Assembly (NCBI RefSeq): GCF_014332515.1 | Contig: NZ_VFSD01000023.1 | Span: forward strand, 1-64,000 | Source of the DNA: Pontibacter beigongshangensis | Lineage (GTDB): Bacteria; Bacteroidota; Bacteroidia; Cytophagales; Hymenobacteraceae | DNA: 64,000 nt | Direction: 5' to 3' | Shown here: positions 10,790-64,000 of the stretch, one piece after another | Layout of the letters: every line of letters begins with the position of its first letter | How positions within the stretch are numbered: the stretch's first letter is position 1 | Made by a program: the position numbers and the translations under genes | The notes under the pieces: generated by a model | The model's input: only the letters and a program-made list of their open reading frames with translations | Databases searched by the model: none | What the model was told of the DNA's origin: nothing

Positions 10790-10847
10790 GGCCTTCTGGA
10801 GACCCATCGGCTGCTCATGTTGCTGAAGGACCTCCGGAAGGCCTTTT
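10790..10847 (+). terminator. Terminator hairpin downstream of paralog 2
   Basis: The arms AAAGGCCTTCTGGAG and CTCCGGAAGGCCTTTTT can pair with one mismatch, and the second arm ends in a T run. The right arm is the palindrome end of the dispersed repeat copy at 10831-10861, showing how that repeat can act as a terminator. Confidence 0.65.
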
Positions 10848-10861
10848 TCATTCAAATAATT
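10831..10861 (-). repeat. Dispersed AATTATT...CCTCCGGAGG repeat, copy A
   Basis: Minus-strand copy. The right palindrome reads CCTCCGGAAG on the plus strand, followed by CTTTTTCATT and AAATAATT. It is preceded by CTG-rich sequence (GGCTGCTCATGTTGCTG), as in other copies. Confidence 0.85.
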
Positions 10862-11072
10862 CGGGTAGAAGAGGAGAATCAAGCATGAGCTTTTCAGTGC
10901 AAATTTCTATTGGGCTATGGCTGGCTTCGTTTCCTGACACATTAAATTGGTATTTCAGACAGGATGCTTTAAGTTTACTGCCTCGTTGCTTCCGACCTTC
11001 TACAGAGGCATCAGCCGGAATTCTGAGGTGACTACGAGCGCAATTCAAATAGATAACATAAAGTATTTTTAC

Positions 11073-11951
11073 ATGAAGGCATATGTATTCCCGGGTCAGG
11101 GATCTCAGTTTGTGGGGATGGGCAAGGAGCTGTATGAGCAGCACGCTGAAGCCAAGGCCCTGTTCGATAAAGCCAATGAGATCCTGGGCTTTAATATTAC
11201 CGAAATCATGTTCCATGGCACAGATGAAGAGCTGAAGCAGACGAAGGTGACACAGCCTGCCATTTTTCTGCACTCGGTGGCGCAGGCCTCCGTGGCCAAA
11301 GATTTTGCACCTGATATGGTGGCAGGACACTCGCTGGGTGAGTTCTCTGCGCTGGTTGCCAGCAAGGTGCTGAGCTTTGAAGATGGCCTACGGCTGGTTT
11401 CTAAAAGAGCGCTGGCCATGCAGGCCGCCTGCGAAGCAAACCCCTCTACCATGGCGGCCATTCTGGGCCTCGACGATGCCAAAGTAGAAGAAGTGTGTGC
11501 CGCCATAGAAGGAGAGGTAGTTGTGGCTGCCAACTATAACTGCCCCGGCCAGTTGGTTATTTCCGGCTCAAACAGAGGCATAGAAATCGCCTGCGAAAAG
11601 ATGAAGGAAGCGGGAGCTAAGCGTGCTTTACCATTGCCGGTAGGAGGTGCATTCCACTCGCCGCTCATGAAACCGGCTGAAGAAGAACTGGCCAAAGCGA
11701 TTGAGGGAACAACCTTCAGCCAGGGAATTTGCCCGATCTACCAGAACGTAGACGCCAAACCGCACACTGACCCTGCCGAAATCAAGCAAAACCTGATCAA
11801 GCAGTTGACGGCCCCGGTTCGCTGGACACAGTCGGTGCAGCAGATGCTGACCGAGGGCGCGACTCATTTTGTGGAGTGCGGCCCGGGCAAAGTACTGCAG
11901 GGGCTGGTGAAGAAAATTGAACGCACGGCAGAAGTAAGCTCAGTGGAGTAG
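11073..11951 (+). CDS. fabD: Malonyl-CoA:ACP transacylase
   Basis: This 292-residue cytosolic enzyme transfers malonyl from CoA to acyl carrier protein to start fatty acid elongation. It begins with the family signature FPGQGSQ. The nucleophile S87 is in GHSLGEFSALV, the catalytic H195 in GGAFHSPLM, and NVDAKP lies near the C-terminus. The ATG giving MKAYVFPGQG is the natural start; an upstream in-frame start would add 42 unrelated residues. It is a single gene, closed by a good terminator. Confidence 0.95.
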   Translation: MKAYVFPGQGSQFVGMGKELYEQHAEAKALFDKANEILGFNITEIMFHGTDEELKQTKVTQPAIFLHSVAQASVAKDFAPDMVAGHSLGEFSALVASKVLSFEDGLRLVSKRALAMQAACEANPSTMAAILGLDDAKVEEVCAAIEGEVVVAANYNCPGQLVISGSNRGIEIACEKMKEAGAKRALPLPVGGAFHSPLMKPAEEELAKAIEGTTFSQGICPIYQNVDAKPHTDPAEIKQNLIKQLTAPVRWTQSVQQMLTEGATHFVECGPGKVLQGLVKKIERTAEVSSVE

Positions 11952-12256
11952 TTGATTTGTATCCATGAAAAAGGTCTGCTTCACTTTGTGAGGCAGACCT
12001 TTTTTGTTTTGTATGTGTTCTTCTTGGCTTATCGTTAAATCTAGAATATTTTCAATGCAAGCATATAGCTGTTAATCGGAGGTGAGATAAGATAGCGTTT
12101 AAACAGGCGCATCCTCAGAAGGCAATAGGTTGGTGTAATTGAAAACTACACCCAGAAGAGATAATCCTGATTTTGCCAAGTTACTTATAATGGCTAACCT
12201 GCGCGTGCAGCAGGATGCAGCGTAGCAAAGCTTCTTGCTACACATTGTTTTACATT
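11952..12256. other. Intergenic region between fabD and a convergent membrane-protein gene
   Basis: Apart from the fabD terminator at its left end I see nothing recognisable in this 305 bp stretch: no gene, dispersed-repeat copy or RNA gene. Confidence 0.5.
11968..12006 (+). terminator. Terminator of fabD
   Basis: A long stem (AAAAAGGTCTGC pairing with GCAGACCTTTTT, extended by TTCAC/GTGAG with one wobble) closes on a TTT loop and ends in a T run, 16 bp after the fabD stop. Confidence 0.85.
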
Positions 12257-12778
12257 TCAAGACTGCCATAACTTCCACGGTTCATAAACTTGTAAGTAAA
12301 GTTGGTATAAACTGAAGTTTATTACTCCGGTCAGTATTAGCTTTATTGTAAGATCTATATCTCTGTTAGTGGAGTAATTTATTTTCCAGATCACCAGAGT
12401 TACCATGAAGGAGCTAAGGACAGGAAAGCCTAATCCTTGTTTATCTCTTACTTCTCCATAATAGAAGGTAGAACCAAAATATAATTCAAACCACTGCAAT
12501 GCCGCAATCGCAAAGGCTGACGTCAGGTAGGTAGTTAGAACAGCTGTATTCTTTCTGTACTTGTCAAAGCATTGAAGTGTAAAAAATAGCAAGAAACTAA
12601 ACCAGGCAATCGTTTTGAAGCAGTGAATTCTTCTTATGCCTGGATTAGAATAATAATCAGCGAAAGGATCGCTTACCGCTGTTTCCAGACCTTCTATTGG
12701 AATGTAATTGATTACAGAAAGGATAATGGCAAACGGAACCAAAAGAGCGAGAGCCGTTTCAAAAATAGTTGACTTCAT
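12257..12778 (-). CDS. Hypothetical integral membrane protein
   Basis: I do not recognise this 173-residue protein. It has about five hydrophobic segments: near residues 7-27 (ALALLVPFAIILSVI), 55-72 (AWFSFLLFFTLQCF), 80-100, 118-135 and 145-165. There are few charged residues inside the segments and no cysteine or histidine motif. Base composition is AT-richer than neighbouring genes, which could mean a different origin. It stands alone between fabD and the exonuclease gene. Function unknown. Confidence 0.6.
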   Translation of the reverse strand: MKSTIFETALALLVPFAIILSVINYIPIEGLETAVSDPFADYYSNPGIRRIHCFKTIAWFSFLLFFTLQCFDKYRKNTAVLTTYLTSAFAIAALQWFELYFGSTFYYGEVRDKQGLGFPVLSSFMVTLVIWKINYSTNRDIDLTIKLILTGVINFSLYQLYLQVYEPWKLWQS

Positions 12779-12975
12779 CCATCATTTACCTATTTCCAGT
12801 TCTTAAGCTTGCATACTGCTTGTCTGTAAACCACCAACATGGTTTGCTGCAACGCGAATCTGAAATTTTAATTACCTCATTAATTTACAAGGCACATCGC
12901 ACCCTTTTATTTAAATCTTTGTGCTATTAAAGCTGAAAGGAACTCGACAGTATTTCAGCGCTCCAAAACCCAACC

Positions 12976-13455
12976 CTACCCCATACTCCTCAGGTGCAGC
13001 ATATACAGCCGGGCGCAGGCCATGGCGTCGCTCAGGGCGTCGTGGTGGTTCAGTTGGATGCTGTGTTGCCGGCACAGGTCGGCTAAACTCTTCTTGAAGA
13101 TCTTGTAGGTGCATTGCTGCTCGTAGGCTGGCTGCGGCATGTTGTAATAGTCGAGGGTGTGGCGGAGGCAACTGAAGTCGAAGGCGCCGTTGTGCGCCAC
13201 CACCGTCTGATCCTGAATGTAAGGCTGAAGCTGCTGCCAGACACTCTTAAATGTAGGGGATTGGCAGGTATGCGCCGCAGAAATGCCATGAATCTCGGTG
13301 TTGCGGTAAAAGTAGAAGTTGTCGGGTGGGCAAACCAGCTGATTAAGTTTGGCGGTTACGGCACCGTTTTCTACCCGCACCAGTCCCACCTGGCAGATAC
13401 TGTAGCGCTTGCCTTGCGCGGTTTCAAAATCGATGGCGGTAAATGTATGGTTCAT
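12976..13455 (-). CDS. DnaQ-like DEDDh 3'-5' exonuclease
   Basis: This short (159 residues) single-domain exonuclease is of the DNA polymerase III epsilon fold. The metal ligands are visible: D9 and E11 (AIDFETA, ExoI), D93 in VAHNGAFDFSCLR (ExoII), and H138 with D143 in HHDALSDAMACA (ExoIII, DEDDh type). It lacks the C-terminal polymerase-binding or other extra domains, so it is more likely a stand-alone repair or RNA/DNA-trimming nuclease than the replicative proofreading subunit. The substrate cannot be read from the sequence. Confidence 0.85.
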   Translation of the reverse strand: MNHTFTAIDFETAQGKRYSICQVGLVRVENGAVTAKLNQLVCPPDNFYFYRNTEIHGISAAHTCQSPTFKSVWQQLQPYIQDQTVVAHNGAFDFSCLRHTLDYYNMPQPAYEQQCTYKIFKKSLADLCRQHSIQLNHHDALSDAMACARLYMLHLRSMG

Positions 13456-13503
13456 GTTTTTAATCTAAAGCAAGACCTTAAGTACTTCGTCTTGTAAATT
13501 GTG

Positions 13504-13534
13504 AATTATTCCAATCAAAAAGGGCCTCCAGAGG
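13504..13534 (+). repeat. Dispersed repeat, copy B
   Basis: Plus-strand copy: AATTATTCCAATCAAAA followed by the GGCCTCCAGAGG palindrome, then a CTG-rich tail (TTTTGCTGCTGG). It lies between the exonuclease and folK. Confidence 0.85.
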
Positions 13535-13584
13535 CACTTTTGCTGCTGGCACTGCTGTGTGCTGTACATCTTCTGCTTCTCGTT

Positions 13585-14079
13585 TTACTCAGGCTGCTCC
13601 ATAAACTCGTGCACCTCCAGGGCATCTTCACAGTTTTCCAGAAGCGACTTTACGGTTTGCTGCAGCACCGGGTGCACCAGCTCGGGCGCAAGCTCGACCA
13701 GAGGCATCAGCGTAAAGCGGCGTTTGTGCAGTTGCGGGTGGGGGATGGTGAGGCGCTGCGTCTGCAGCACCAGGTCCTCATAAAACAAAATGTCGATGTC
13801 GATCACGCGCGCCCCCCAGTGCTCAACGCGTTCCCGGCCGAGTTCCTGCTCTATGCGGTGGATGGCCAAGAGCACCTGCTCCGGCTGCAGCTCTGTTCTG
13901 AGCCGGAGTACCTGGTTCAGAAACGCGGGTTGGTCTGTTTTGCCCCAGGCAGCGGTTTCGTAGAGTCTGGAGCTGCTGGTAATAGCCCCTACTTCAATAG
14001 CCAGACTTTCGCGGGCCTGCTGCAGAAAAGCAGGCCGATTGCCGAGGTTGCCCCCCAGAAGCAGGTAGATATCAGCCAT
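13585..14079 (-). CDS. folK: 2-amino-4-hydroxy-6-hydroxymethyldihydropteridine pyrophosphokinase
   Basis: This folate biosynthesis enzyme transfers pyrophosphate from ATP to 6-hydroxymethyl-dihydropterin. It has 164 residues. YLLLGGNLGNR is at the N-terminus, and the signature WGARVIDIDILFYEDL with IPHPQLHKRRFTLMPL carries the metal- and ATP-binding residues. The ATG giving MADIYLLLGGN is chosen because it starts right at the family N-terminus. The 5' end overlaps the stop region of the upstream hydrolase gene by 8 bp, so the two are probably cotranscribed. Confidence 0.94.
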   Translation of the reverse strand: MADIYLLLGGNLGNRPAFLQQARESLAIEVGAITSSSRLYETAAWGKTDQPAFLNQVLRLRTELQPEQVLLAIHRIEQELGRERVEHWGARVIDIDILFYEDLVLQTQRLTIPHPQLHKRRFTLMPLVELAPELVHPVLQQTVKSLLENCEDALEVHEFMEQPE

Positions 14080-14929
14080 GTTTCCGGATAAACTGAATGG
14101 TGAGGTCCGCGGCTTTTTGGGCGGCAGCAGGCAGGTGCGGCTCTGCATACGGATGCCTGCCTCCGTACGAGTGGTCGGTTTCGGGGAGCAGGTGCAGCTC
14201 AGCGTCGGGCTTCCGGCTTTTCAGGTCCAGGGCCATTTGCACCGGCAGCGTCTCGTCTTCTTCGCCATGCAAAATTAAAAGCGGCTGCTCGATTTGCTGC
14301 ACCAGGTCAGGCAGGTGCAGGCGGTGCAGGTTGGCCTGGTAGTTTTCTACCAGTTGGTAGTAGAGCGGCATTTGCTGGCCGGTGCGGGCATTGGCTACCC
14401 ACTGCACACCTTCCTGCTTCCACTGCGCCATCACCTCGGGCGGCCAGCGCATGTTAAAGTCGCTCACCCCCGACCAGGTGGCTACGCCAGTCACGCGGCT
14501 GTCTTCGGCGGCTTTTGCCAGCACGGCCCCACCCCCCCGGCTGTGGCCTATCAGGAAGATCCTGCTGGGGTCTAGCTCCTGTGCTGGTAAGGTGCCTGTG
14601 GGTGTGTACAGATCATCCAGCAATGTGCCTATGTCGTCGAGTTCCAGGCAGAAGTTGTTGTTGCCGAAAGCCTCCATGTCGTGCACATCGGAGCAGTCGG
14701 CTACGCTGGTGCCGTTGTGGGAGAGGTTCATTTTAATGAAGAAGAAGCCCTGGCCCGCAAAATAGTCGGCCAGCAGGTTAAAATGCCCCCAGTCTTTAAA
14801 GCCCTTGAAACCGTGCACAAACACCACCACAGGCTTGGGCTGCCCGCTTTCGTGGTAGCGGGCATCGGCGGTGAAGGGCCGCTGGTGGGGCGGGTGTACT
14901 ATAAAGTCCAGTTTTTTTAGTTCGGGCAT
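14072..14929 (-). CDS. Alpha/beta hydrolase
   Basis: This 285-residue cytosolic hydrolase of the alpha/beta fold resembles dienelactone-hydrolase/peptidase-S9-like esterases. The oxyanion region is VVVFVHGFKGFKDWG, the nucleophile is S130 in FLIGHSRGGG, the acid is D225 in HGEEDETLPV, and the base is H253 in ETDHSYGG. There is no signal peptide. It lies directly upstream of folK with an 8 bp overlap, but nothing else suggests a role in folate synthesis. Substrate unknown. Confidence 0.85.
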   Translation of the reverse strand: MPELKKLDFIVHPPHQRPFTADARYHESGQPKPVVVFVHGFKGFKDWGHFNLLADYFAGQGFFFIKMNLSHNGTSVADCSDVHDMEAFGNNNFCLELDDIGTLLDDLYTPTGTLPAQELDPSRIFLIGHSRGGGAVLAKAAEDSRVTGVATWSGVSDFNMRWPPEVMAQWKQEGVQWVANARTGQQMPLYYQLVENYQANLHRLHLPDLVQQIEQPLLILHGEEDETLPVQMALDLKSRKPDAELHLLPETDHSYGGRHPYAEPHLPAAAQKAADLTIQFIRKHG

Positions 14930-15031
14930 CTGCTGTTGCTGTTATCGGGTTAATATTATTCAATTATTAGCCCATTTGCAAAGACATCGCTTGGAAACCA
15001 TGGGGAAGCATAGTAATATTGTGCACCCAAA

Positions 15032-16009
15032 ATGAGCATCAGTCTAGACGAAATACAAGCACCCATCGCGCAGGAAATGCAGCTTTTCGAGAAGAAGTTC
15101 AGGACTTCCATGAAGTCTAACGTCCTCCTTCTGGATAAGATCATGAGCTATATTGTAAAACGCAAAGGCAAGCAGATGCGGCCCATGTTTGTTTTCTTTT
15201 CGGCCAACCTTTTTGCCAAGGGCATTACAGAAGCTACCTATCGCGGGGCGGCCCTGATAGAGCTGCTCCACACGGCCACCCTCGTGCACGACGATGTGGT
15301 GGACGATGCCAACTACCGCCGTGGCTTCTTCTCTGTAAACGCCCTCTGGAAAAATAAGATTGCCGTGCTCGTGGGCGATTACCTGCTCTCGAAGGGCCTG
15401 CTGCTCTCGCTGCACCACAACGACTTTGAGCTGCTCAAAATCGTGTCGAACGCGGTGCGGGAGATGAGCGAAGGGGAGCTGCTGCAGATAGAGAAAGCCC
15501 GTCGCCTCGACATTAACGAGGATATATATTTCGACATTATCCGCCAGAAAACAGCCTCGCTTATTGCCTCCTGCTGCGCCGTAGGAGCCGCCTCGGCAGG
15601 CGCCACGGTAGAGGAAATAGAGAAAGCCCGCCTGTTTGGCGAAAAGGTAGGCATTGCCTTCCAGATAAAAGACGACCTCTTCGATTACGGCACCGCTGAG
15701 ATCGGAAAGCCTGTCGGTATCGACATCAAAGAGAAGAAAATGACGCTGCCGCTCATCCACGCGCTGCGCGAAGCTGATTGGCTGACCAAGCGCAAGGTGA
15801 TTTACAATGTGAAGAACAACAACGGCGACAGCAAGCGGGTGCAGCATGTTATCGATTTTGTAAAAGGATCAGGCGGCATCAACTATACCATCGGACAGAT
15901 GAACAAGTATTACTCGGAGGCACTGGCCATTCTGAGTACATTTCCCCCATCCCCTTCCCGCACTTCGCTGGAGCAGCTCATGGCCTTCACCATCGCCAGA
16001 GAAAAATAA
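15032..16009 (+). CDS. Polyprenyl diphosphate synthase
   Basis: This trans-isoprenyl diphosphate synthase has 325 residues. It probably makes the long side chain of menaquinone (heptaprenyl/octaprenyl type). The first aspartate-rich motif is HDDVVDD (D87-D92) and the second is QIKDDLFDY (about 211-219); both chelate Mg-diphosphate. Conserved GKQMRP precedes the first motif. The product chain length cannot be settled by eye. The gene stands alone. Confidence 0.9.
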   Translation: MSISLDEIQAPIAQEMQLFEKKFRTSMKSNVLLLDKIMSYIVKRKGKQMRPMFVFFSANLFAKGITEATYRGAALIELLHTATLVHDDVVDDANYRRGFFSVNALWKNKIAVLVGDYLLSKGLLLSLHHNDFELLKIVSNAVREMSEGELLQIEKARRLDINEDIYFDIIRQKTASLIASCCAVGAASAGATVEEIEKARLFGEKVGIAFQIKDDLFDYGTAEIGKPVGIDIKEKKMTLPLIHALREADWLTKRKVIYNVKNNNGDSKRVQHVIDFVKGSGGINYTIGQMNKYYSEALAILSTFPPSPSRTSLEQLMAFTIAREK

Positions 16010-16087: not shown

Positions 16088-16118
16088 CTTTTGGAAGGCC
16101 ATTTTCATTAGAATAATT
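16088..16118 (-). repeat. Dispersed repeat, copy C
   Basis: Minus-strand copy downstream of the polyprenyl synthase gene: TTTTGGAAGGCC on the plus strand, then ATTTTCATTAGAATAATT. The palindrome is degenerate. Confidence 0.75.
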
Positions 16119-16861: not shown

Positions 16862-16864
16862 GCG

Positions 16865-16893
16865 AATTATTCTAATGGAAATGCCCTTCTGGA
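16865..16893 (+). repeat. Dispersed repeat, copy D
   Basis: Plus-strand copy: AATTATTCTAATGGAAA, then TGCCCTTCTGGA. It begins 4 bp after the methyltransferase stop and forms an inverted pair with copy E. Confidence 0.8.
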
Positions 16894-16989
16894 ACTCCCA
16901 GTTGCCGTAGATAAGCCAGCAGTATAGCTACAAGGTGCAAACAAAGAAGGTTTGGTCGCGCAGGCCCTGATCAGGAGGCTGAAGGAAAG

Positions 16990-17020
16990 CCTCTGGAAGG
17001 CATTTTTCATTCAAATAATT
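16990..17020 (-). repeat. Dispersed repeat, copy E
   Basis: Minus-strand copy: CCTCTGGAAGGC on the plus strand, then ATTTTTCATTCAAATAATT. It faces copy D about 100 bp away. Confidence 0.85.
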
Positions 17021-29550: not shown

Positions 29551-30099
29551 ATGAAAAAGGCAGACTATTTTATATTTTGTATGGCGTGTTGCGTGGTTGT
29601 TTTTGCAGCTGCCTGCTCTCCTATAAAGATCGTGAAAGCAGATGCAGCCGGCAATTTCAGGCTGTCGGACTACCAGACTTTTAATTTCTACGAGATGGAG
29701 GCCTCCGGCAACGCACTTCGGGCGTACGGGCAGCAGATGGATTTTATCAGAACCGAGATGATCCGGGAACTCGAGCGGCGCGGCCTGCGGCAGGCCGACG
29801 AGAACCCGGATCTGCGCATTAACCTGGGGGTAGTGATAGAGGAGGAGGTGCAGACCCGCGAAACAAACATCCTGACAGACCCGCCTACTTACATAGGCCA
29901 GCGCCGGTACAGCTGGAAGAGCCAGGAAGTAGAGGTCGGCCGTTACAACGAAGGCACTCTCTCTGTGGATCTGGTGCATAACAGGCGGAATGAGCTGGTG
30001 TGGCAGGGAGTGGCAGAAGCGGTAGTGCCCAAAGACCCCTCAAAACTCCGGGAGCGGATAACTGCAGGGGTAGAAAAGCTGGTCAAGCGAATTCCTTAG
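29551..30099 (+). CDS. DUF4136 lipoprotein
   Basis: This 182-residue envelope protein has a lipoprotein signal (FIFCMACCVVVFAAACSP, lipobox Cys near residue 22). It then has a DUF4136-type domain: DYQTFNFYEM near the start, DLRINLGVVIEEE in the middle, and LVWQGVAEAVV before the end. Such proteins are common in Bacteroidetes and proteobacteria, but no function is established. It is transcribed away from the rsb operon and is followed by repeat copy F. Confidence 0.8.
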   Translation: MKKADYFIFCMACCVVVFAAACSPIKIVKADAAGNFRLSDYQTFNFYEMEASGNALRAYGQQMDFIRTEMIRELERRGLRQADENPDLRINLGVVIEEEVQTRETNILTDPPTYIGQRRYSWKSQEVEVGRYNEGTLSVDLVHNRRNELVWQGVAEAVVPKDPSKLRERITAGVEKLVKRIP

Positions 30100-30134: not shown

Positions 30135-30165
30135 TCTCCGGAAGGCTGTTTTCATTCGAATAATT
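30135..30165 (-). repeat. Dispersed repeat, copy F
   Basis: Minus-strand copy: TCTCCGGAAGGCTG on the plus strand, then TTTTCATTCGAATAATT, 36 bp after the DUF4136 gene. Confidence 0.85.
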
Positions 30166-30300
30166 TGATTGCTGGTTGTTGATTGTTGTTGATGTGTTAA
30201 TTTTTTGTTTTGGAGATTTGAGAATTTGGTGATTTGAAGATGAGCAGGAAAACATAAAATCATTCTTAACTCATAACTTCTCACGCTCAAATTATGAAAG

Positions 30301-30332
30301 TCCTGTGTCTTACGTCCTGTTTCCTACGTCCC
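30301..30332. repeat. CCTGTGTCTTxxGTCCTG pyrimidine-rich repeat, copy 1
   Basis: A run of CTGTGTCTT/CGTCCTG-like units lies just before dispersed repeat copy G. Similar runs occur at 48238-48268 and 52559-52590. Confidence 0.55.
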
Positions 30333-30340
30333 TAAATAAG

Positions 30341-30371
30341 CCTCCGGAGGGGCTTTTTCATTAGAATAATT
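30341..30371 (-). repeat. Dispersed repeat, copy G
   Basis: Minus-strand copy with a perfect CCTCCGGAGG palindrome, then GGCTTTTTCATTAGAATAATT. With the preceding AAG it forms a short terminator-like hairpin ending in TTTTT. Confidence 0.9.
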
Positions 30372-34658: not shown

Positions 34659-34689
34659 GCTCCGGAGGGCCAGTTTCATTAGAAAAATT
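34659..34689 (-). repeat. Dispersed repeat, copy H
   Basis: Minus-strand copy between nirB and nirD: GCTCCGGAGGGCC, then AGTTTCATTAGAAAAATT. CTGCTG follows the left block. Confidence 0.85.
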
Positions 34690-39021: not shown

Positions 39022-39052
39022 AATTATTCGAATGAAAAAGGCCCTCCGGAGG
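39022..39052 (+). repeat. Dispersed repeat, copy I
   Basis: Plus-strand copy closest to the consensus: AATTATTCGAATGAAAA, then AGGCCCTCCGGAGG, 15 bp after the narK stop. Confidence 0.92.
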
Positions 39053-39131
39053 CAAAAACAGGCCGCAAGACACATGACGTCAGACACAAGATTCTGTGTG
39101 AGGCACACGCTCCTCCTGCTTCTTCCAGACA

Positions 39132-39295
39132 CTCGCAGGAGCTGCGCACGCTGCGAGGTCTTCAGGCTATAATTGGACAATCAACAAGCAATTCTTCTAA
39201 TGAAAATAGCCTTCCGGAGCGATTTTGCCGATTTTTTGCCAAGGATTACAACGGATGCAAACCTGAAGCCTCGCAGCGTGCGCAGCTCCTGCGAG
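39132..39295. repeat. Long inverted repeat enclosing a dispersed repeat copy
   Basis: The left arm 39132-39166 and right arm 39262-39295 are complementary over 34 bp with one extra T in the left arm (CTCGCAGGAGCTGCGCACG at the outer end). The 95 bp centre contains repeat copy J. It is MITE-like in shape, with no transposase. Confidence 0.8.
39190..39219 (+). repeat. Dispersed repeat, copy J
   Basis: Plus-strand copy: AATTCTTCTAATGAAAA, then TAGCCTTCCGGAG. It lies inside the inverted repeat 39132-39295. Confidence 0.82.
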
Positions 39296-42990: not shown

Positions 42991-43021
42991 CCTCCAGAGG
43001 ACCTTTTTCATTAGAAAAATT
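42991..43021 (-). repeat. Dispersed repeat, copy K
   Basis: Minus-strand copy: CCTCCAGAGG, then ACCTTTTTCATTAGAAAAATT. It is preceded by a run of CAG triplets (42961-42986), the longest example of the CTG/CAG tail. Confidence 0.88.
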
Positions 43022-47604: not shown

Positions 47605-48174
47605 ATGAAAAACCTGCTGGGCGTGGTGCTGTGTGGCGGCCAGAGCAGCCGTATGGGTTCCGACAAAGGCCTGCTGCTCCTCAACGGTATTCCCTGGGCC
47701 AGCCATGTGGCAGCGAGGCTAAAGGAACTGCCGGTGCCGGTGGTAGTATCGGTCAATCCGGGGCAAATAAGCAATTATTCGAATCATTTTGCCCCTCAGG
47801 AGCTTGTTGTGGATGCTGCCACTGTTGCCGTAGAAGGTCCGCTGAAGGGCCTGCTAAGCGTGCACCGGCAATACCCCACGCACGATTTGCTCCTCATGGC
47901 CTGCGACATGATCGATATGGAGACGGCTACGCTCCGCCAACTGCTTCAGGTACGGGAGCAGGAGCCGGAATACAATTTTTATGTATATCAGGAGGGAGAG
48001 TTTGCCGAGCCTTTCGGAGCCGTTTACGGAGCCACTGGTCTGGCAGCAGTGATGCAAAAGCTACAGGCGGGGAGCCTGCCGCGCAACAGCCTGCGCAGTG
48101 TGCTGGACAATGGCGATACAAAACGCCTGCCATTGCGCCACAAGCAAAGCTTCAGGAATTATAACCGCATGTAA
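47605..48174 (+). CDS. mobA: Molybdenum cofactor guanylyltransferase
   Basis: This 189-residue MobA links GMP to molybdopterin to make the bis-MGD cofactor needed by the nitrate reductase. The nucleotide-binding signature is LCGGQSSRMGSDKGLL, with MACDMIDM as the metal-binding segment and EPFGAVYG following. Codons around 47773-47802 (ISNYSNHFAPQE) are made of a sequence that matches the dispersed intergenic repeat, apparently an in-frame insertion. Confidence 0.92.
   Translation: MKNLLGVVLCGGQSSRMGSDKGLLLLNGIPWASHVAARLKELPVPVVVSVNPGQISNYSNHFAPQELVVDAATVAVEGPLKGLLSVHRQYPTHDLLLMACDMIDMETATLRQLLQVREQEPEYNFYVYQEGEFAEPFGAVYGATGLAAVMQKLQAGSLPRNSLRSVLDNGDTKRLPLRHKQSFRNYNRM
47773..47802 (+). repeat. 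Dispersed repeat, copy L, inside mobA
   Basis: AATTATTCGAATCATTTT, then GCCCCTCAGGAG. It is a divergent but recognisable plus-strand copy within the mobA reading frame, and the only one in a gene. Confidence 0.6.
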
Positions 48175-48237
48175 TAAAAACAGACGCAGCACACAAGATC
48201 TTTTGTTGGACTTTCCCGAAATCTGAAATCCCGGAAT

Positions 48238-48268
48238 CCTGTGTCTTGTGTCCTGCGTCCTGTGTCTT
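48238..48268. repeat. Pyrimidine-rich GTGTCTT/GTCCTG repeat, copy 2
   Basis: CCTGTGTCTTGTGTCCTG followed by another GTCC/GTGTCTT unit, located between mobA and a convergent cytochrome gene. It is similar to 30301-30332 and 52559-52590. Confidence 0.55.
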
Positions 48269-48726: not shown

Positions 48727-49151
48727 TTTTAATTAACTAATCTGTCCGGCGCAAGAGGTCCGGGCGCCTGTCCCGGCAGTTTTATGGCTGCCCTAAACAT
48801 GCTTACGAATCGCCTGGAACCGGTGCTAAGATATACAGATTATTTAATTAAACTCCCTTTCCAGCCTCATTTTCATGTATCCAGGTCACACAGGAAGCTC
48901 TTGCCGGGGCGGCACCAGCCTAAAAATCAGGGCCGAAAGTCTGGGATAATCAGCTCCGTGTACAAAACAAGGGTATGGGGCAGCGCAAGGCAGGGGGCAG
49001 GGACAGGCACCGCTCCGTTACAGCGTTTTCAGAAAATCAGGCGGTTAGCACACCAGCACAAGCGCACTTTGTTGTTAGCAAACAAATTATTTGAATGAAA
49101 ATGGCCCTCCGGAGGCTTTGCTGCTTCTGCGGCCCCCCATCAAAAAAACGC
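48727..49151. other. Intergenic region with one dispersed repeat
   Basis: This 425 bp region has no convincing gene. Repeat copy M is near its right end. Confidence 0.6.
49085..49115 (+). repeat. Dispersed repeat, copy M
   Basis: AATTATTTGAATGAAAA, then TGGCCCTCCGGAGG, followed by the CTG-rich tail CTTTGCTGCTTCTG. Confidence 0.92.
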
Positions 49152-49886: not shown

Positions 49887-49917
49887 GATTATTCAGATCA
49901 AAATGGCCCTCCGGAGG
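49887..49917 (+). repeat. Dispersed repeat, copy N
   Basis: GATTATTCAGATCAAAA, then TGGCCCTCCGGAGG. Confidence 0.88.
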
Positions 49918-50530: not shown

Positions 50531-50561
50531 GCGCCGGAGGGCCATTTTCATTAGAATAATC
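50531..50561 (-). repeat. Dispersed repeat, copy O
   Basis: Minus-strand copy: GCGCCGGAGGGCC, then ATTTTCATTAGAATAATC. Confidence 0.87.
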
Positions 50562-52477: not shown

Positions 52478-52558
52478 CTTTTTAATTAGGATATTTGAAG
52501 ATGAGTGACCAGAACAGACTTTAAAATAATAAAATCTTAATTCCTATCTTATAAAAAA

Positions 52559-52590
52559 GTCCTGTATCTTAAGTCCTGCACCCTGTGTCT
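52559..52590. repeat. Pyrimidine-rich GTGTCTT/GTCCTG repeat, copy 3
   Basis: TCCTGTATCTTAAGTCCTG then CACCCTGTGTCT, immediately upstream of dispersed repeat copy P, the same order as at 30301-30371. Confidence 0.5.
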
Positions 52591-52613
52591 GCTTTAAAGC
52601 AGCAGCAGCAGCA

Positions 52614-52644
52614 CCTCTGGAGGGGCTTTTTCATTGGAATAATT
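52614..52644 (-). repeat. Dispersed repeat, copy P
   Basis: Minus-strand copy: CCTCTGGAGG, then GGCTTTTTCATTGGAATAATT, preceded by AGCAGCAGCAGCA. Confidence 0.88.
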
Positions 52645-54069: not shown

Positions 54070-54100
54070 AATTATGCTAATGAAAATGGCCCTCCGGCGG
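54070..54100 (+). repeat. Dispersed repeat, copy Q
   Basis: AATTATGCTAATGAAAA, then TGGCCCTCCGGCGG. It begins at the base immediately after the uxuA hairpin. Confidence 0.88.
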
Positions 54101-56334: not shown

Positions 56335-56337
56335 GGC

Positions 56338-58722: not shown

Positions 58723-61014
58723 ATGAAACGGATATTGTTCTGTGTCGTGTGCCTGTTGGCATGGTGGCACTGTGCCTGCGCACAAACAGGTACCAGTGGT
58801 CTGGTGATGGATGCGCTTACTAGAGAACCACTTTATGGCGTTAGCATTCGGCTGAAGCAGGCCAACACAGGTACCCAGACAGGTGCTGACGGGAGTTTTA
58901 AGCTGACGGATGCCTTGCCTACAGATACCCTCGTCTATTACTTTATTGGCTACAAATCCAGGGCGGTGGCGGTAGCCAACCATCAGAAAGCTGTGCTGCT
59001 GCAGCCATCTTCCAACTTGCTCGATCAGGTAATCGTGTCTGCCAGCCGCGAGGCGCAGGTGCGCACCGATGCCCCCATCGCCATTAGTGCCATCTCCAGA
59101 GAAGTCCTGCTCGATACCAGGGCCACCTCGCTGGAGCAGGTATTGAATAAGGTCAGCGGGGTGTATATGGTGAACCTCGGCAATGAGCAGCACACCATGG
59201 CCATCCGGCAGCCTATCGGATACAGAAGCCTCTTCCTGTACCTGGAAGACGGCATCCCGATCCGGACTGGCGGCAACTTTAACCACAACGCGCTGATTGA
59301 GATGAACATGGCCGCTCTGAAGACCATAGAGGTTATTCGGGGGCCGGCCTCCTCCCTGTATGGCAGCGAAGCCATTGGCGGGGCCATCAACTTTATCACG
59401 CAGTCGCCTTCGCAGCTCTTTACGGCCAAACTGCAGGCCGAGGCCAGCGACAGGGGCTACAGAAGAACTGATTTCAGCGTATCGAACACGGTAGGTAAAC
59501 TGGGGATTTATGCGGCCGGTTATTATGCCGCTCAACGAAACGGGGTAATCGAGCACAGCGATTTTGATAAACTGGCCCTGACCCTCCGCACCGACTACGC
59601 CCTGAACGACCGAAGCAAGCTGGTGACTTCTGCCAGCCTGGTAGACTATAAAACTGACCAGACCGGCGGCCTCGACAGCAAGCGCTTCTATGAGGAAGAG
59701 TACAGCAGCCTGCACACCTTTACCTACCGTAAAGTAAATGCCTTCCGGCTGAGAAGTACCCTGGAGCACGAGTGGAACGCTTTGAACAGCACCCGCCTCA
59801 CACTCTTTTTCCGCAACAACAGCATCGGGCAGAATCCTTTCTATGTCATCAAAAACACGGCAGGCAACTCCTTAAATGCAAAAGGAGAAATTAACGAGGA
59901 TGCCTTCCAGAGCTTTGGGCTGCTGGGGCAGCATCGCAAAACCTTTTCTTTTCTGAATGCCCAACTCATAGGCGGCCTGAGCGCAGACTATAGCCCCGCT
60001 GCCTACCATGCGCAGCAAATCGACATCGACAGAGATGATACCGGTAAATATATCCGCTATCATAACACAGGTGTATTACTGACGGATTATAACGTGAAAC
60101 TTCTGAACACGGCAGCTTATGCCCAGTTCGAGATGAATCCAATAGAAAAACTAAAGGCGGTTGCCTCCCTGCGCTACGACCGGATGGACTTTGCCTTTGA
60201 TAACCACCTGGAGCCAGGGGCGTTTTCGGGGGCACCAGATGAGAAGAACGGGTTTAATAGCCTGACTCCAAAGCTTGGCCTGACTTACGACCTGGGCAGG
60301 AGCAAGGGGCTGTATGCGAATTACAGCGTAGGGTTCACGCCTCCTCAGATCTCGGAGCTGTACCGGGGGGTGCAGGTGCCAGCACTAAAGCCTGCCAACT
60401 ATTACAACTACGAAGCTGGAGGCTGGCTTAGCTTTGCACAGGCCAAAGGTTACATCGACCTGAGCGTGTACCAGCTCGATGGCATCAACGAAATAGTATC
60501 GGTGCGCTTAGATGATGGCTCTTACGAGAACCAGAACACGGGTAAAACCCGGCATCGGGGAGTGGAATATACTTTGCGGTACAATCCTTTCGAGTGTTTG
60601 GCTTTCCGGTTCAGTGGCACCAATGCCCGGCATACGTACCTTCGGTTTGTGGAGCGCGGGGCTGATTTTGGCGGGAACGAAATGGCCACAGCGCCACGGT
60701 TTATCAGCAATGCGGAGCTTACCTACAAACCCGCTTTCGCCCAAGGCCTGCGCCTAAGCCTGGAGTGGCAGCACCTTGGCAAATACTACATGGACCCGGC
60801 CAACTCTGAGACTTATAAGGGCTACGACCTGCTGCATGCCCGCCTGGGTTACCACATCAGGGGCTTTGATGTGTGGCTGAATATGCTGAACCTGGGAAAT
60901 GCCTTGTATGCCACCACTGCCGATAAGTTTGCTTATGGCCACAATTACCGGGTAGGCAGCCCACGCACCACACATGTGGGAGTGGCCTATACTTTTGCGG
61001 CGAAGTCGCGATAA
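58723..61014 (+). CDS. TonB-dependent outer-membrane receptor
   Basis: This 763-residue outer-membrane receptor has a signal peptide (MKRILFCVVCLLAWWHCACA) and a carboxypeptidase-regulatory-like domain (about 25-105; SGLVMDALTREPLYGVSIRL). A plug domain follows (about 115-225; LEQVLNKVSGVYMVN, IEVIRGPASSLYGSEAIGGAINFIT). The C-terminal beta barrel ends in VGVAYTFAAKSR. It resembles siderophore/vitamin/metal-type receptors rather than SusC. The start ATG 58723 gives a proper signal peptide. It is followed by a lipoprotein gene after 32 bp. The ligand is unknown. Confidence 0.9.
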   Translation: MKRILFCVVCLLAWWHCACAQTGTSGLVMDALTREPLYGVSIRLKQANTGTQTGADGSFKLTDALPTDTLVYYFIGYKSRAVAVANHQKAVLLQPSSNLLDQVIVSASREAQVRTDAPIAISAISREVLLDTRATSLEQVLNKVSGVYMVNLGNEQHTMAIRQPIGYRSLFLYLEDGIPIRTGGNFNHNALIEMNMAALKTIEVIRGPASSLYGSEAIGGAINFITQSPSQLFTAKLQAEASDRGYRRTDFSVSNTVGKLGIYAAGYYAAQRNGVIEHSDFDKLALTLRTDYALNDRSKLVTSASLVDYKTDQTGGLDSKRFYEEEYSSLHTFTYRKVNAFRLRSTLEHEWNALNSTRLTLFFRNNSIGQNPFYVIKNTAGNSLNAKGEINEDAFQSFGLLGQHRKTFSFLNAQLIGGLSADYSPAAYHAQQIDIDRDDTGKYIRYHNTGVLLTDYNVKLLNTAAYAQFEMNPIEKLKAVASLRYDRMDFAFDNHLEPGAFSGAPDEKNGFNSLTPKLGLTYDLGRSKGLYANYSVGFTPPQISELYRGVQVPALKPANYYNYEAGGWLSFAQAKGYIDLSVYQLDGINEIVSVRLDDGSYENQNTGKTRHRGVEYTLRYNPFECLAFRFSGTNARHTYLRFVERGADFGGNEMATAPRFISNAELTYKPAFAQGLRLSLEWQHLGKYYMDPANSETYKGYDLLHARLGYHIRGFDVWLNMLNLGNALYATTADKFAYGHNYRVGSPRTTHVGVAYTFAAKSR

Positions 61015-61046
61015 ATTCTTGTTTTCTGGTTTATAAACGCACCCTC

Positions 61047-62297
61047 ATGATGTTGTTCATTCAAAAAATAACCACCTTCTCTTTTTTCGGCCTGCTCCTG
61101 CTGGCAGGTTGTCAGGCAAACGTTTCGGATAGTGCAGAAACTGAATTGCCTGCTGCTCAAAGAATTTCCGGACTTGGTTTAGCGGCTTCGTGCCCCTATC
61201 TTACTCAAAACCGGGAGGGGCAGGCGGTGCTGAGCTGGGTGCAGGCAAGCGACCCGGCAGGCAACTACCTGCTGCATTATGCTGTTTCTGCGGACAGTGG
61301 CAAAACGTTTAACACACCACGAGCCATTCCCACTACCAAAGGCGTATACCCGCACGATGAAAACCTGTCGAAGATCCTGTTCCGGAAGAACGGGGACCTG
61401 ATCGCCATGTTTGCAGTAAGCAACCCAAACGACCAGAACAGCTACGCAGGCCTGGTCTACTATACCCAGTCCTTCGACGGGGGCAGCAACTGGACAGCGC
61501 CCAGGCAGCTGGCGGAGAATACAGCAGAGAGCATAGACGAGCGCTATTTTGACATGGAACTGTTGCCGGACGGCGAAGTGGCTGCCATCTGGTTGGACAG
61601 TCGCAAAGAGGCCGGGGCACATGGCTCCTCCCTCTACTTTGCCAGCACCAGGGGCCGCGAAGGCTTTGAGGGGGAGAAGGTAATAGATACGGACCTCTGC
61701 CAATGCTGCCGCACCGACCTGTACCTGGATGAGCGGGGGAAGCTGCACGTGGCCTACCGGGGTATTCTGAACAAGCAGATCCGGGACATGATGTACATGG
61801 TGTCGGCAGACGGTGGCAGGAGCTTTTCTAAACCAGCACGCATCAGCGAAGACAACTGGCTGATTGATGGCTGCCCCCACACCGGCCCGGCCATGACCTC
61901 TAACCAGAACGGCATGCACTACGCCTGGTTTACGATGGGAGGGGGCCATGGCGTATACTACGCCCAAAAGTCGCATGGCAAGGCATTCAGCCCGAGAGAA
62001 GCAGTTAGCCAGGCTCCCGCAGCCAAGCACCCGCAGATGGCCTCTTTCGGATCAGGTAAGCTGGCAATTGTATGGGACGAGCGCAGCCAGGAATCAGCAG
62101 GAGCCGGCAACTTTATCGGCTTGCAGCTGAGAGGGGAGAAGGGGGAACAGCTGCTGACGAAGCACCTGACACCGGATACCATCAGTGCCGTGTATCCGGT
62201 TATTATGCCTGTGAGCGAACACAATCTGCTTGTGGCTTATACGGTAAAATCTGATGGCCCGGCGGAGGTTTGGTATCAGGTAGTTGCCGGTAAGTAG
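61047..62297 (+). CDS. Asp-box (BNR/sialidase-like) lipoprotein
   Basis: This 416-residue lipoprotein (lipobox LLLAGCQAN) has a beta-propeller-like domain with Asp-box repeats: SADSGKTF, SFDGGSNWT and SADGGRSF. It carries a CQCC cluster in DTDLCQCCRTDLYLDE. The fold is that of exo-alpha-sialidases, but the catalytic arginine triad and nucleophilic tyrosine cannot be assigned by eye, so enzymatic activity is doubtful. The CxCC could bind a metal (inference). It is cotranscribed with the TonB receptor and may present the ligand to it. Confidence 0.8.
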   Translation: MMLFIQKITTFSFFGLLLLAGCQANVSDSAETELPAAQRISGLGLAASCPYLTQNREGQAVLSWVQASDPAGNYLLHYAVSADSGKTFNTPRAIPTTKGVYPHDENLSKILFRKNGDLIAMFAVSNPNDQNSYAGLVYYTQSFDGGSNWTAPRQLAENTAESIDERYFDMELLPDGEVAAIWLDSRKEAGAHGSSLYFASTRGREGFEGEKVIDTDLCQCCRTDLYLDERGKLHVAYRGILNKQIRDMMYMVSADGGRSFSKPARISEDNWLIDGCPHTGPAMTSNQNGMHYAWFTMGGGHGVYYAQKSHGKAFSPREAVSQAPAAKHPQMASFGSGKLAIVWDERSQESAGAGNFIGLQLRGEKGEQLLTKHLTPDTISAVYPVIMPVSEHNLLVAYTVKSDGPAEVWYQVVAGK

Positions 62298-62384
62298 GCT
62301 ATTGTCTTTTTGATGGGCCATAGAAGCTACTTTAACTGATAGCACACCAAGTACATCCAAGTAAATTTTGTTGAACAGAAGCAA

Positions 62385-62415
62385 AATTATTCCAATGAAA
62401 AAGACCCTCCAGAGG
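62385..62415 (+). repeat. Dispersed repeat, copy R
   Basis: AATTATTCCAATGAAAA, then AGACCCTCCAGAGG. Confidence 0.9.
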
Positions 62416-62578
62416 CATTTAGCCCTTGTTCCCTGGTCCTTCATCCGTAAGAAATTAGTTGATTGTACTCAGAACCAATGCACAGGACTTTTGATTAGTT
62501 AAGAGTTAAAAGTGAAATATGATTAAAGCTTGCCCTGGTCGTTCATTTCCAAAACAACCATTTAACAACCAACAATCA

Positions 62579-62609
62579 AATTATTCTAATGAAAAAGGCC
62601 CTCCGGAGC
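62579..62609 (+). repeat. Dispersed repeat, copy S
   Basis: AATTATTCTAATGAAAA, then AGGCCCTCCGGAG, followed by the CTG-rich tail CTTTGCTGCTGG. Confidence 0.92.
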
Positions 62610-62662
62610 TTTGCTGCTGGTTCTGCTGCACAGGCAGTTTTTATGGCAGCCTAGCACTACCT

Positions 62663-63646
62663 CTAAACGGGCCAGACATCGTCAGGAGATAAGGATACAG
62701 ATACTTTATCTCCTGCTTCGAACGGCACAGGGCCTGTTCTTACCGTAACAATTTTTTCTGCCAGCCGCACATCAACTTCATAATGGCTGCCGTAGTACTT
62801 CACCTGCTCTACGATTCCCGGGGTGCCCTGGCTTGTATCGGCGTGTATTTTAAAGTTCTCCGGTCGTACCAGCAAGCTTTTTTCGTTCAGTGCGGTGTCG
62901 GGTATGGCAGAAAGTGCTTTAGCCATGGCACCATGCAGAAGGTTATAGCTGCCGAACAGCGCTGCGGTGTACTCATTTACCGGCTGTTTGTAAATCTGCT
63001 CCGGCGTGCCTTGCTGGATGATCTGCCCGGCATGCAGCACCAGAATCTCATCTGCCCAGGAGAGCGTGTCCTGCGGGTCGTGGGAGATCAGGATGCAGGT
63101 GATGTCCAGCTTCTCGCCGATGTCGTGGATAATGGATTTCAGGATTTTTTTGTGGGCGCCGTCCAGGTTCGAAAAAGGCTCGTCGAGCAGGAGCAGGCGG
63201 GGTCTTTTTATCAGCAGCCTGGCCAGGGCAATGCGCTGGCGCTCCCCACCCGACAGCTGGTTTGTCTGGCGCTTGGTTAAATGGCTGATTCTGCAGACCT
63301 CATACAAGTCCTCTGCCTCCTGGGCTGAAAGCTTGTTGGCGTATTTCAGGATCTGCTCCACCCGCAAAAACTGGGGCAGCTCAAACTGCTGCGACAGGTA
63401 AAAGATATGCGGATGCCCCGGCACCAGTTTCTCGGCCGGGCCAATAACTTTTTTGCCCTCAAAAAACACCTCCCCGCTGCTGGGCTCTGTCAGTCCTGCT
63501 ATAATCTGCAGCAAGGTGCTTTTACCCGACCCGGTTTCTCCGGCAATGGCAATTTTCTTAAACTCCTGCTGCGAAAAACTGATATCCTTCAGAACAGCAT
63601 TTCCATTTTCCTGCAGACTTACTCCCGCTACTTCTAACAAACTCAT
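62663..63646 (-). CDS. ABC transporter ATP-binding protein with C-terminal TOBE domain
   Basis: This 327-residue ATPase resembles the spermidine/putrescine, iron or molybdate importer class. Walker A is GETGSGKST (36-44), the Q-loop is in YLSQQF, the signature is LSGGERQ (131-137), Walker B is LLLLDEP (151-157) and the switch histidine is in LISHD. Residues about 245-327 form a TOBE-like regulatory domain (SLLVRPENFKI, VSLSPDDVWPV). No permease or binding-protein gene is in the window; they may lie beyond its end. The substrate cannot be assigned. Confidence 0.9.
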   Translation of the reverse strand: MSLLEVAGVSLQENGNAVLKDISFSQQEFKKIAIAGETGSGKSTLLQIIAGLTEPSSGEVFFEGKKVIGPAEKLVPGHPHIFYLSQQFELPQFLRVEQILKYANKLSAQEAEDLYEVCRISHLTKRQTNQLSGGERQRIALARLLIKRPRLLLLDEPFSNLDGAHKKILKSIIHDIGEKLDITCILISHDPQDTLSWADEILVLHAGQIIQQGTPEQIYKQPVNEYTAALFGSYNLLHGAMAKALSAIPDTALNEKSLLVRPENFKIHADTSQGTPGIVEQVKYYGSHYEVDVRLAEKIVTVRTGPVPFEAGDKVSVSLSPDDVWPV

Positions 63647-64000
63647 ATAATTACAAATGGCTCTTCAGATTTTGCCTGTTTTCAGGGTTTGGCAGCTCAA
63701 AGCCTTTACCCGGGTGCAAATCTGATAATATATCCTTAAAGAAACATAGAAGAATCGACACGATCAAACACTTTGCCTGGCCGGGACTTTTCTGGTTGCC
63801 TGCTGCCTGCTGTTATTGCTGCCGGCTGTTGCTGGTCGAACCTGAGGAAGTGGCGCTATTGAAGAGAAAACGGCGGTGAATCAGTCATCAGCCGCGTATG
63901 CCGGCGCACACTAAAAGCCTGGCCGTGCAAACCAGGCACATCAGGTGCTACCGGAACTGTAGCAGGAGCCGCTGGCAATTATTCTAATCAAAACACCCCT
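63647..64000. other. Intergenic end of window
   Basis: No gene is seen in these last 354 bp. The window ends inside dispersed repeat copy T. Confidence 0.6.
63977..64000 (+). repeat. Dispersed repeat, copy T (cut by window end)
   Basis: AATTATTCTAATCAAAA followed by CACCCCT; the palindrome half is cut off by the window edge. Confidence 0.8.

Follow-up and report, generated by a model that had tools for sequence, protein, structure and literature searches.

Short repeats in the 64-kb window

The analysed stretch of the Pontibacter beigongshangensis contig (the window, 64 kb) carries 20 copies of one short element, nine on the minus strand and eleven on the plus strand (Table 1). In this species the element is a 31-bp unit, AATTATTCnAATnAAAA-N4-CCTCCGGAGG, which comprises a left block, a 4-bp spacer and a palindrome. 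Nineteen copies are full PWM sites (at least 14 bits), and the twentieth is the fragment cut by the window end; an earlier note on this DNA had arrived at the same total and strand split. With up to three mismatches, the left block AATTATTCTAATGAAAA matches the window 19 times where 0.18 matches would be expected, a number reached by none of 100 shuffles, and the palindrome, with at most one mismatch, has 13 against 1.67 expected. A left-block match at 52480 that lacks the palindrome was excluded from the 20 copies. All copies but one are intergenic, as had been claimed, the exception lying in a predicted gene. The first 10.8 kb had also been described as empty, and no PWM site precedes 10831; about three copies would be expected there at the genome-wide density, so their absence is unremarkable. 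A search for known RNAs in positions 30000–64000 returned two tRNAs only.

Table 1. Element copies and the gene holding an intragenic copy (each full copy is 31 bp: left block, N4 and palindrome).
Feature	Position	Strand	Remarks
Element copy	10831..10861	-	
Element copy	13504..13534	+	covered by sister-species alignment; element at same place there
Element copy	16088..16118	-	degenerate palindrome
Element copy	16865..16895	+	
Element copy	16990..17020	-	faces the copy at 16865..16895
Element copy	30135..30165	-	
Element copy	30341..30371	-	
Element copy	34659..34689	-	~24 bp past stop of a presumably nitrite-reductase-like gene
Element copy	39022..39052	+	
Element copy	39190..39220	+	followed by TGCCAAGGAT, similar to sister's right end
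Element copy	42991..43021	-	CTG-rich tail
Element copy	47773..47803	+	in frame within mobA-like gene; sister's gene has one too
Element copy	49085..49115	+	
Element copy	49887..49917	+	left block with 4 mismatches, palindrome perfect
Element copy	50531..50561	-	
Element copy	52614..52644	-	CTG-rich tail
Element copy	54070..54100	+	
Element copy	62385..62415	+	in ~124-bp repeat (ends inverted, by eye), recurring at C12:294296
Element copy	62579..62609	+	
Element copy	63977..64000	+	truncated by window end
Gene taken to be mobA-like from its sequence motifs	47605..48174	+	holds the window's only intragenic copy

Abundance and species distribution

The family is dispersed genome-wide, as the earlier note had proposed, and is neither at chance frequency nor restricted to the window. 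A scan of 1.22 Mb of the P. beigongshangensis genome, a set in which the early stretches were selected for copies and which includes two complete contigs, found 375 copies, or about 1,600–1,800 genome-wide by scaling. The exact left-block pattern occurs 728 times in the whole genome and its reversed control not at all. The complete contig C1 holds 151 copies in 528,553 bases, and 461 kb, a sample partly picked for containing copies, has 159 PWM sites of at least 14 bits versus none in first-order Markov shuffles. Element density in the sister species P. qinzhouensis is about equal, and by scaling each of the two sister genomes carries well over a thousand copies. In 48 other Pontibacter species the left-block pattern is found zero or one time each, which places the family in two of the 50 species searched. 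Viral contigs gave no element match. A single match in a Gastranaerophilales MAG, among the matches listed, was taken as chance since it is one copy. Searches of one open-access library yielded no paper for the left-block 17-mer, for P. qinzhouensis by name or on this repeat family.

Element architecture and constraint

On its left the conserved unit begins abruptly, at AATTATT (position 0). The CTG-rich sequence that, in the earlier note, often follows the palindrome is only a weak preference. The P. qinzhouensis version has the same 17-bp left block, but its palindrome is a different one, CCTTCnGAAGG, and its right end is fixed as CAAGGGT; the P. beigongshangensis version has no fixed right end. 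Across the two species the element is 31–57 bp long.

Copies are close to all-or-none: 365 of the 389 PWM hits above 6 bits in P. beigongshangensis score at least 25. The half-motif AATTATTCnAAT is not in excess outside elements: it occurs once in genes (permuted mean 0.6, maximum 3) and three times elsewhere (permuted mean 0.7, maximum 3). The per-position tolerance profile is alike in both species (Spearman 0.95), with mismatches of 0–2.4% at seven core positions versus 49% at position 8, and linkage between positions is found chiefly among near neighbours; this uneven tolerance and short-range linkage fit repeated copying via a recognising step. Core mismatch stays at 0–2% in every genomic setting, divergent gaps included. 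A core that is nearly invariant everywhere, together with half-motifs that are not in excess, suggests that gain and loss of copies involve complete units.

Placement relative to genes

Gene contexts are those predicted by a simple gene finder rather than curated annotation. Copies are nearly all intergenic, with 5 of 375 in predicted genes in P. beigongshangensis and 1 of 200 in P. qinzhouensis. Density per kb is 2.41 in convergent, 1.44 in tandem and 0.79 in divergent gaps, and the usual load is none to two copies per gap, with a plateau near 1.2 per gap. Fewer convergent gaps are empty than expected (32 of 105 versus 50.8, reached in 0 of 300 simulations), as are fewer tandem gaps than at random; divergent gaps are not underdispersed (83 of 116 empty, 81.4 expected). 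Short tandem gaps are nearly element-free (10% and 3% occupied) and short convergent gaps are not (47% and 43%). Copies peak 20–80 bp past stop codons, where the orientation bias is also strongest: the left block points away from the gene in the majority, at 89:29 in P. beigongshangensis and 59:20 in P. qinzhouensis, a strong bias and not a rule. Beyond 150 bp in tandem gaps the ratios are 50:44 and 25:16, respectively. No clear replication-strand bias was seen.

Like an intrinsic terminator, the element lies 3′ of genes in one orientation, as a bias, but it has no stable GC hairpin directly before a U tract. As RNA, the hairpin folds at −4.6 kcal/mol in one direction, where 178 of 200 shuffles fold at least as well, and at −8.7 (z −0.7) in the other, and 3–4 nt separate the palindrome from the T run. 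Stem covariation was found within neither species. The element's own hairpin is called a terminator in 9 of 92 gene-opposed copies in P. beigongshangensis and in 10 of 50 in P. qinzhouensis. The terminator-like hairpin of the earlier note is only weakly supported, as is a role as a classical terminator. Among elements at least 90 bp away, which leave room for one, a canonical terminator precedes the element in 27 of 64 convergent cases in P. beigongshangensis (17 of 50 in element-free gaps) and in 11 of 62 tandem cases (36 of 154); in P. qinzhouensis the counts are 12/28 versus 9/28 and 12/31 versus 18/83 in element-free gaps.

The case of clearest orthology between the species' copies is the mobA-like gene, in which the left block is identical at 18 of 18 bases and the palindrome and right part differ towards each species' own version. 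In-gene copies sit on seemingly native codons, and those in the mobA-like gene and in an MBOAT-like gene show no 57-bp insertion relative to relatives, a finding that plain insertion fails to explain. The copy at C1:681 coincides with a predicted gene start. A small-protein reading, in which ATGAAAAAGGCCCTCCGGAGGCTTTTGCTGCTG encodes the signal-peptide-like MKKALRRLLLL, was rejected as a rule because frame 2 is open at least as often as the ATG frame (for 40 codons in 55 versus 45 of 208 P. beigongshangensis copies) and because C or A frequently replaces the G of the ATG.

A MITE target, larger repeats and turnover

A MITE of 332–376 bp inserts at one exact point of the element with a 5-bp duplication, ATTCT; by script, an element surrounds 14 of the 16 MITE copies (from 30 loci) for which both ends could be located. 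The element itself, judged on its P. qinzhouensis version, does not show the terminal inverted repeats or the target duplication that mark a MITE. Seen by eye, AATTATTC and CAAGGGT at its two ends do not form inverted repeats, and no clear duplication flanks them (best z 2.8 over many shifts). Some copy pairs share a surrounding repeat of 107–185 bp, with inverted ends visible by eye in two P. beigongshangensis pairs. Matches that span the flanks number 19 among 375 P. beigongshangensis copies and 101 among 200 P. qinzhouensis copies, with largely low-complexity flanks in the four inspected. No empty site was found among these 120 matches in the searched genome parts: in 119 an element is present at each of the two matched places, and the one scored as element-free visibly contains gapped element-like sequence. 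Within long two-species alignments, 7 of 10 elements have a same-strand partner and 3 have none. Candidate pairs from the same gap (24) resemble each other no more than randomly paired copies do and give no sign of shared ancestry, so age and turnover are not told apart.

Y1 transposases

The family search detected six Y1 (RAYT-like) transposase genes in the P. beigongshangensis genome. Their neighbourhoods (six loci, 19.3 kb) contain five elements of at least 10 bits against about six expected. Flanks were resolved at six of the ten Y1 loci read: five P. beigongshangensis genes (L029, L031, L032, L033 and L034) are bordered by other palindromes, as is the P. qinzhouensis gene L196. Among the other four (L030, L174, L181 and L189), an element lies ~85 bp from the match in L030 of P. 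beigongshangensis and ~210 bp from it in L174 of P. qinzhouensis. Nine of the 11 congeners searched that lack the family also have Y1 genes. The consensus contains neither a GTAG nor a CGTC tag (positions −10 to 49 checked for GTAG). The earlier note's description of the family as REP-like is supported by how many copies there are, by their position between genes and by the fact that a transposon targets them. Its suggestion of movement by a RAYT transposase is not supported: the element is not enriched at Y1 genes, five of six bear other palindromes, and a RAYT gene flanked by the same element was not found at the resolved Y1 loci.

Comparison with known systems

REP, BIME and REPIN sequences are described as many short palindromic copies, mostly intergenic and often near gene 3′ ends, which serve as IS targets at one exact point (PMC3733652, PMC1525189). 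On that description the Pontibacter element shares their high copy number, short palindromic sequence, intergenic position, location at gene 3′ ends and exact use as a mobile-element target; unlike them, it has no GTAG tag, RAYT association or stem covariation, and it has a 17-bp AT-rich block with a nearly invariant core outside the palindrome. REPs tagged with CGTC, known from Bacteroidetes among other phyla, are reported to have no linked transposase (PMC3733652), and none was found linked to the Pontibacter element, which differs in lacking the CGTC tag and in holding much of its information in the AT-rich block rather than the palindrome. The REP-specific ISPsy8, IS1397 and ISPpu9 are likewise reported to break their repeat at one exact point (PMC1525189), but the inserter here is a MITE with its own 5-bp duplication. 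DNA uptake sequences of Neisseriaceae and Pasteurellaceae are reported to have high copy numbers and dialects between relatives (PMC3630211, PMC2346458). The Pontibacter element is similar in both respects, but is almost exclusively intergenic and without an excess of partial motifs.

Origin and possible role of the family

The reading favoured here, at even confidence, is a short interspersed family that is REP-like but outside the RAYT-REP class, confined, among the species searched, to a sister pair within Pontibacter, spread as a unit and settled at gene 3′ ends. In its favour are the copy number, the two-species distribution, the all-or-none units with their uneven tolerance and conserved core, the placement after stop codons, the MITE target and the copies within larger repeats. 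Several results count against it: no enzyme that would spread the element was found, neither empty sites nor a target duplication turned up in the sequence covered, the in-gene copies add no insertion, same-gap pairs show no excess similarity, three of ten aligned elements lack a same-strand partner, and divergent gaps are not underdispersed. A host-selected 3′-end signal, i.e., a terminator or insulator that RNA polymerase reads and/or a dedicated protein binds, selected at each transcription-unit end, is a credible though rather unlikely alternative. It would account for the shortage of empty convergent and tandem gaps and the plateau with gap length, for the occupancy of short convergent and not short tandem gaps, and for the orientation peak past stops. 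In single-element convergent gaps of P. beigongshangensis, moreover, another strong terminator serves the near gene in 3 of 37 cases versus 12 of 37 for the far gene, though the available space differs. The same contrast is only 3/15 versus 5/15 in P. qinzhouensis. Furthermore, core conservation does not drop at distances above 150 bp or within divergent gaps, with scores alike (MWU p 0.63 and 0.31), canonical terminators are about equally frequent before elements and in element-free gaps, the RNA fold is weak and without stem covariation, and 48 congeners lack the element. In another, unlikely reading, a putative dedicated, clade-specific DNA-binding or copying factor would recognise the element and mark transcription-unit 3′ ends chromosome-wide; the specificity of this factor would have shifted between the sisters, with all copies following one by one.

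Movement of a classical REP/REPIN by a RAYT tyrosine transposase would match the high copy number, the position between genes at their 3′ ends, the palindrome, the insertion of a MITE, the six Y1 genes of the genome and the two elements close to Y1 matches, but is highly improbable given the missing tags, the lack of enrichment beside Y1 genes, the different palindromes found there and the Y1 genes of congeners without the family. DNA uptake motifs are expected to show an excess of partial and coding-region motifs. That a motif of this kind is maintained here by biased uptake and recombination is suggested by the species dialects around a shared core, by constraint independent of context and by in-gene copies on seemingly native codons; it is set aside as scarcely probable mainly because partial motifs are not in excess, in genes or elsewhere, and also for the few copies in predicted genes and the length of the element. 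The larger repeats shared by some copy pairs could make the unit a passive passenger of several MITE families, with no activity of its own, but the few flank-spanning matches in P. beigongshangensis, the low-complexity flanks of those inspected in P. qinzhouensis and the sharp edge at position 0 render this very improbable.

If the family spread as a unit, a sequence-specific activity may copy complete units from many source copies, the copying agent being either a putative transposase acting in trans or carriage by MITEs. Units would persist at transcript 3′ ends, where they may be least harmful or most helpful, and decayed copies would be lost quickly, so that each species would homogenise to its own version. 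Near stops, the predicted arrangement of a weak hairpin, then TTTTC and then the fixed ATTnGAATAATT probably helps to end or insulate transcription.

An abundant repeat that is missing from 48 congeners and differs in form between sisters is a natural experiment on the origin and uniformity of repeats. It is also a further example, from Bacteroidota, of the known habit of mobile elements to land in REP-like repeats and spare genes. Should the copies prove active at transcript termini, at least hundreds of 3′ ends in a genome would have been rewired within one small clade.

Abundance, structure and species range of the element

All 20 copies that the earlier note had counted in the window (9 minus-strand, 11 plus-strand) were recovered by weight-matrix and mismatch searches. 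The first 10.8 kb is indeed free of them, which is unsurprising because copies are spaced about 3 kb apart. The unit has a sharp left edge at AATTATTC. After this comes one unconstrained base, then AAT and AAAA separated by a loosely conserved base, and finally CCTCCGGAGG, set off from AAAA by four more loosely conserved bases. Sequence 5′ of its first base shows only weak preferences, chiefly avoidance of T at −1 and A at −2. On the 3′ side of CCTCCGGAGG the unit grades into sequence rich in T and CTG, the CTG-rich tail noted earlier being a weak preference.

The family is dispersed genome-wide, as had been proposed: the exact left-block pattern AATTATTCnAATnAAAA occurs 728 times in the 5.75 Mb assembly of Pontibacter beigongshangensis, in which the window is C16:1-64000, against 0 for its reversed control. 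At a weight-matrix threshold of ≥18 bits, 375 sites were found in 1.22 Mb of this genome and 200 in 0.66 Mb of its nearest relative, Pontibacter qinzhouensis GY10130, which has 618 exact left-block matches. By simple scaling, the whole genomes carry about 1,600–1,800 and 1,900 copies, respectively. Each of the 48 other congeners searched contained the exact left block 0 or 1 times. The exact 31-base form was absent from the named species genomes scanned, a set that may leave out P. beigongshangensis itself; a looser form gave at least 54 stretches among the matches listed, 53 of those from P. qinzhouensis.

Both species share the left block, while the palindrome in P. qinzhouensis is CCTTC-n-GAAGG and its element has a fixed right end, (C/T)CAAGGGT, with CAAGGGT at bases 50–56. 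There, 85 of 94 copies score at least 7 of 10 for TG(C/T)CAAGGGT, 81 of these at the expected offset of 46–48. Copies within a species are fairly homogeneous for its own version, and same-gap, same-strand pairs between the species (n = 24) were no more similar than random pairs. Among ten elements inside long interspecies alignments, seven had a same-strand partner and three had none. The copy in the mobA-like gene is a case of plain orthology, its left 18 bases being identical in both species and the rest diverging towards each species' own version.

Different motifs were seen in other congeners. One genome (G030) has 240 copies of the 7-mer AACTATA in 80 kb, 118 in predicted genes and some in terminator-like loops, against 9–28 per 80–84 kb in five other Pontibacter genomes; this is a possible uptake- or HIP1-like motif. 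In 80 kb of another genome (G069) there are 15 copies of TATATATGG and 218 of TATATA; five other genomes counted had 0–1 copies of TATATATGG.

Coordinates of copies, associated repeats and other motifs (C1, C12 and C16, contigs of P. beigongshangensis unless prefixed G030 or G069)
Feature	Location	Loci
In-frame element copy in mobA-like gene	window 47773-47803	L290 also
Tandem MBOAT-like gene pair	C12:251789-255877	L085
Copy at apparent start codon	C1:681-715	L229
Repeats of ~124-153 bp enclosing element, inverted ends by eye AGTACATT...AATGTACT	window 62350-62475 and C12:294243-294367; C1:46215 and C16:92901	
Recurring low-complexity intergenic sequence, e.g. gacacaggac / gacgtaagacacaggac	window ~30290-30340, 39053-39090, 48180-48260, 52555-52613	
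AACTATA-rich region	G030:C1:1000001-1080000	L093-L096
TATATATGG- and TATATA-containing region	G069:C1:1000001-1080000	L101-L104

Placement relative to genes

Only 5 of 375 copies in P. beigongshangensis and 1 of 200 in P. qinzhouensis lie in predicted genes, although these make up about 75% of the sequence. Convergent, tandem and divergent gaps hold 2.41, 1.44 and 0.79 copies per kb in the former species, and 2.22, 1.52 and 0.71 in the latter. Gaps without a copy numbered 32 of 105 for convergent pairs (50.8 expected) and 192 of 348 for tandem pairs (212.1 expected), and for divergent gaps the number matched random expectation (83 of 116 empty, 81.4 expected). Convergent gaps plateau near a mean of 1.2 copies whatever their length; among gaps shorter than 200 bp, 10% and 3% of tandem and 47% and 43% of convergent ones carry a copy.

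The distance from stop codon to element peaks at 20–80 bp, where most copies have their left block facing away from the gene (89 of 118 in P. beigongshangensis, 59 of 79 in P. qinzhouensis). This bias is weaker and mixed at 80–150 bp, and small beyond 150 bp in tandem gaps (50:44 and 25:16). Position 3′ of genes and orientation favour a transcription terminator, as does the rarity of another strong terminator at the near gene in single-element convergent gaps of P. beigongshangensis (3 of 37, versus 12 of 37 at the far gene, the space searched differing between the two). However, this contrast is weak in P. qinzhouensis (3/15 versus 5/15), ordinary terminators precede distant copies about as often as they occur in copy-free gaps, and conservation is independent of location, with core mismatch of 0–2% alike near a stop, far from a stop and between divergent genes. 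The terminator-like hairpin read from the window is weakly supported: the RNA fold is weak and stem covariation is absent. A 3′-end role is likely for part of the copies, but is not treated here as the reason for the family's existence.

Simple insertion does not explain the copies in the mobA-like and MBOAT-like genes, because the element occupies codons there without a matching insertion. The mobA-like gene shows one or two residues' difference from three congeners, and the element is in frame on seemingly native codons in both species. A tandem gene pair, which we take to be MBOAT-like, carries a copy in the same loop of both genes; the MBOAT-like gene is close in length to its best homologues in congeners and aligns without gaps to a same-genome paralogue in the element region, the loop itself being dissimilar. 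Replacement, a gene-fragment ancestor or in-place evolution are possible origins. In a predicted 404-aa gene, a further copy coincides with what appear to be the start codon and the signal peptide.

Relation to transposases and other repeats

The earlier note had proposed a REP-like family moved by a RAYT transposase. Six RAYT-like (Y1) genes are present in P. beigongshangensis, and the element is not enriched near them. It lies about 85 bp from the Y1 match in L030 and about 210 bp from that in L174 of P. qinzhouensis; the five other P. beigongshangensis genes (L029, L031, L032, L033 and L034) have palindromes of another kind at their flanks, gagctgaaagctcgc, gcaagtttgtaacttgc and gtgtagttgaaaactacac among them, as read by eye. 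The GTAG and CGTC tags that define REP classes, in the part of PMC3733652 drawn on here, are missing from the element. These observations speak against a RAYT-associated REP. Four P. qinzhouensis Y1 loci were inspected and a palindrome was read in one (L196). It and the five loci above look like RAYT genes, each accompanied by its own, partly distinct palindromic repeat (that of L034 contains GTAG), and are probably the true REP systems of the two genomes.

A MITE of 332–376 bp, bounded by AACCCAAGTTGTGCGGTAG...CTACCGCACAACTTGGGTT and accompanied by a 5-bp duplication, ATTCT, is inserted after the element's AATTATTCT, one exact position, in both species. Both ends were found at 16 of 30 loci examined (including L197–L222); 14 of the 16 lay inside an element by script and one more (L222) by eye, and that at L219 lay outside. 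Both orientations within the element (9 and 5 of 14) and occurrence in both species indicate that the MITE targets it, much as several IS elements target REPs according to the portion of PMC1525189 used here. Sequence resembling parts of the MITE, mainly its interior, was matched in 46 of the 48 other congeners, all of which are without the element. Some element copies sit within other repeats, and caacaatcaacaacc-like text recurs next to elements in both species.

Variation among copies and proposed mode of spread

Mismatch rates are 0–2.4% at seven core positions, 49% at position 8 and 25–44% at position 12, and the two species share this per-position profile (Spearman 0.95). Neighbouring positions show the strongest linkage, P. 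qinzhouensis adding a few weaker long-range pairs. Half-motifs showed no excess in genes or elsewhere, and 365 of 389 matrix hits above 6 bits in P. beigongshangensis score at least 25. The uneven profile, constant core, lack of half-motif excess and all-or-none scores together indicate a unit that is recognised position by position but seems to appear and disappear whole. A single master whose copies age neutrally does not fit this variation. The sequence pattern is best fitted by a process in which many source copies would be copied through a sequence-specific step and decayed copies would be lost fast.
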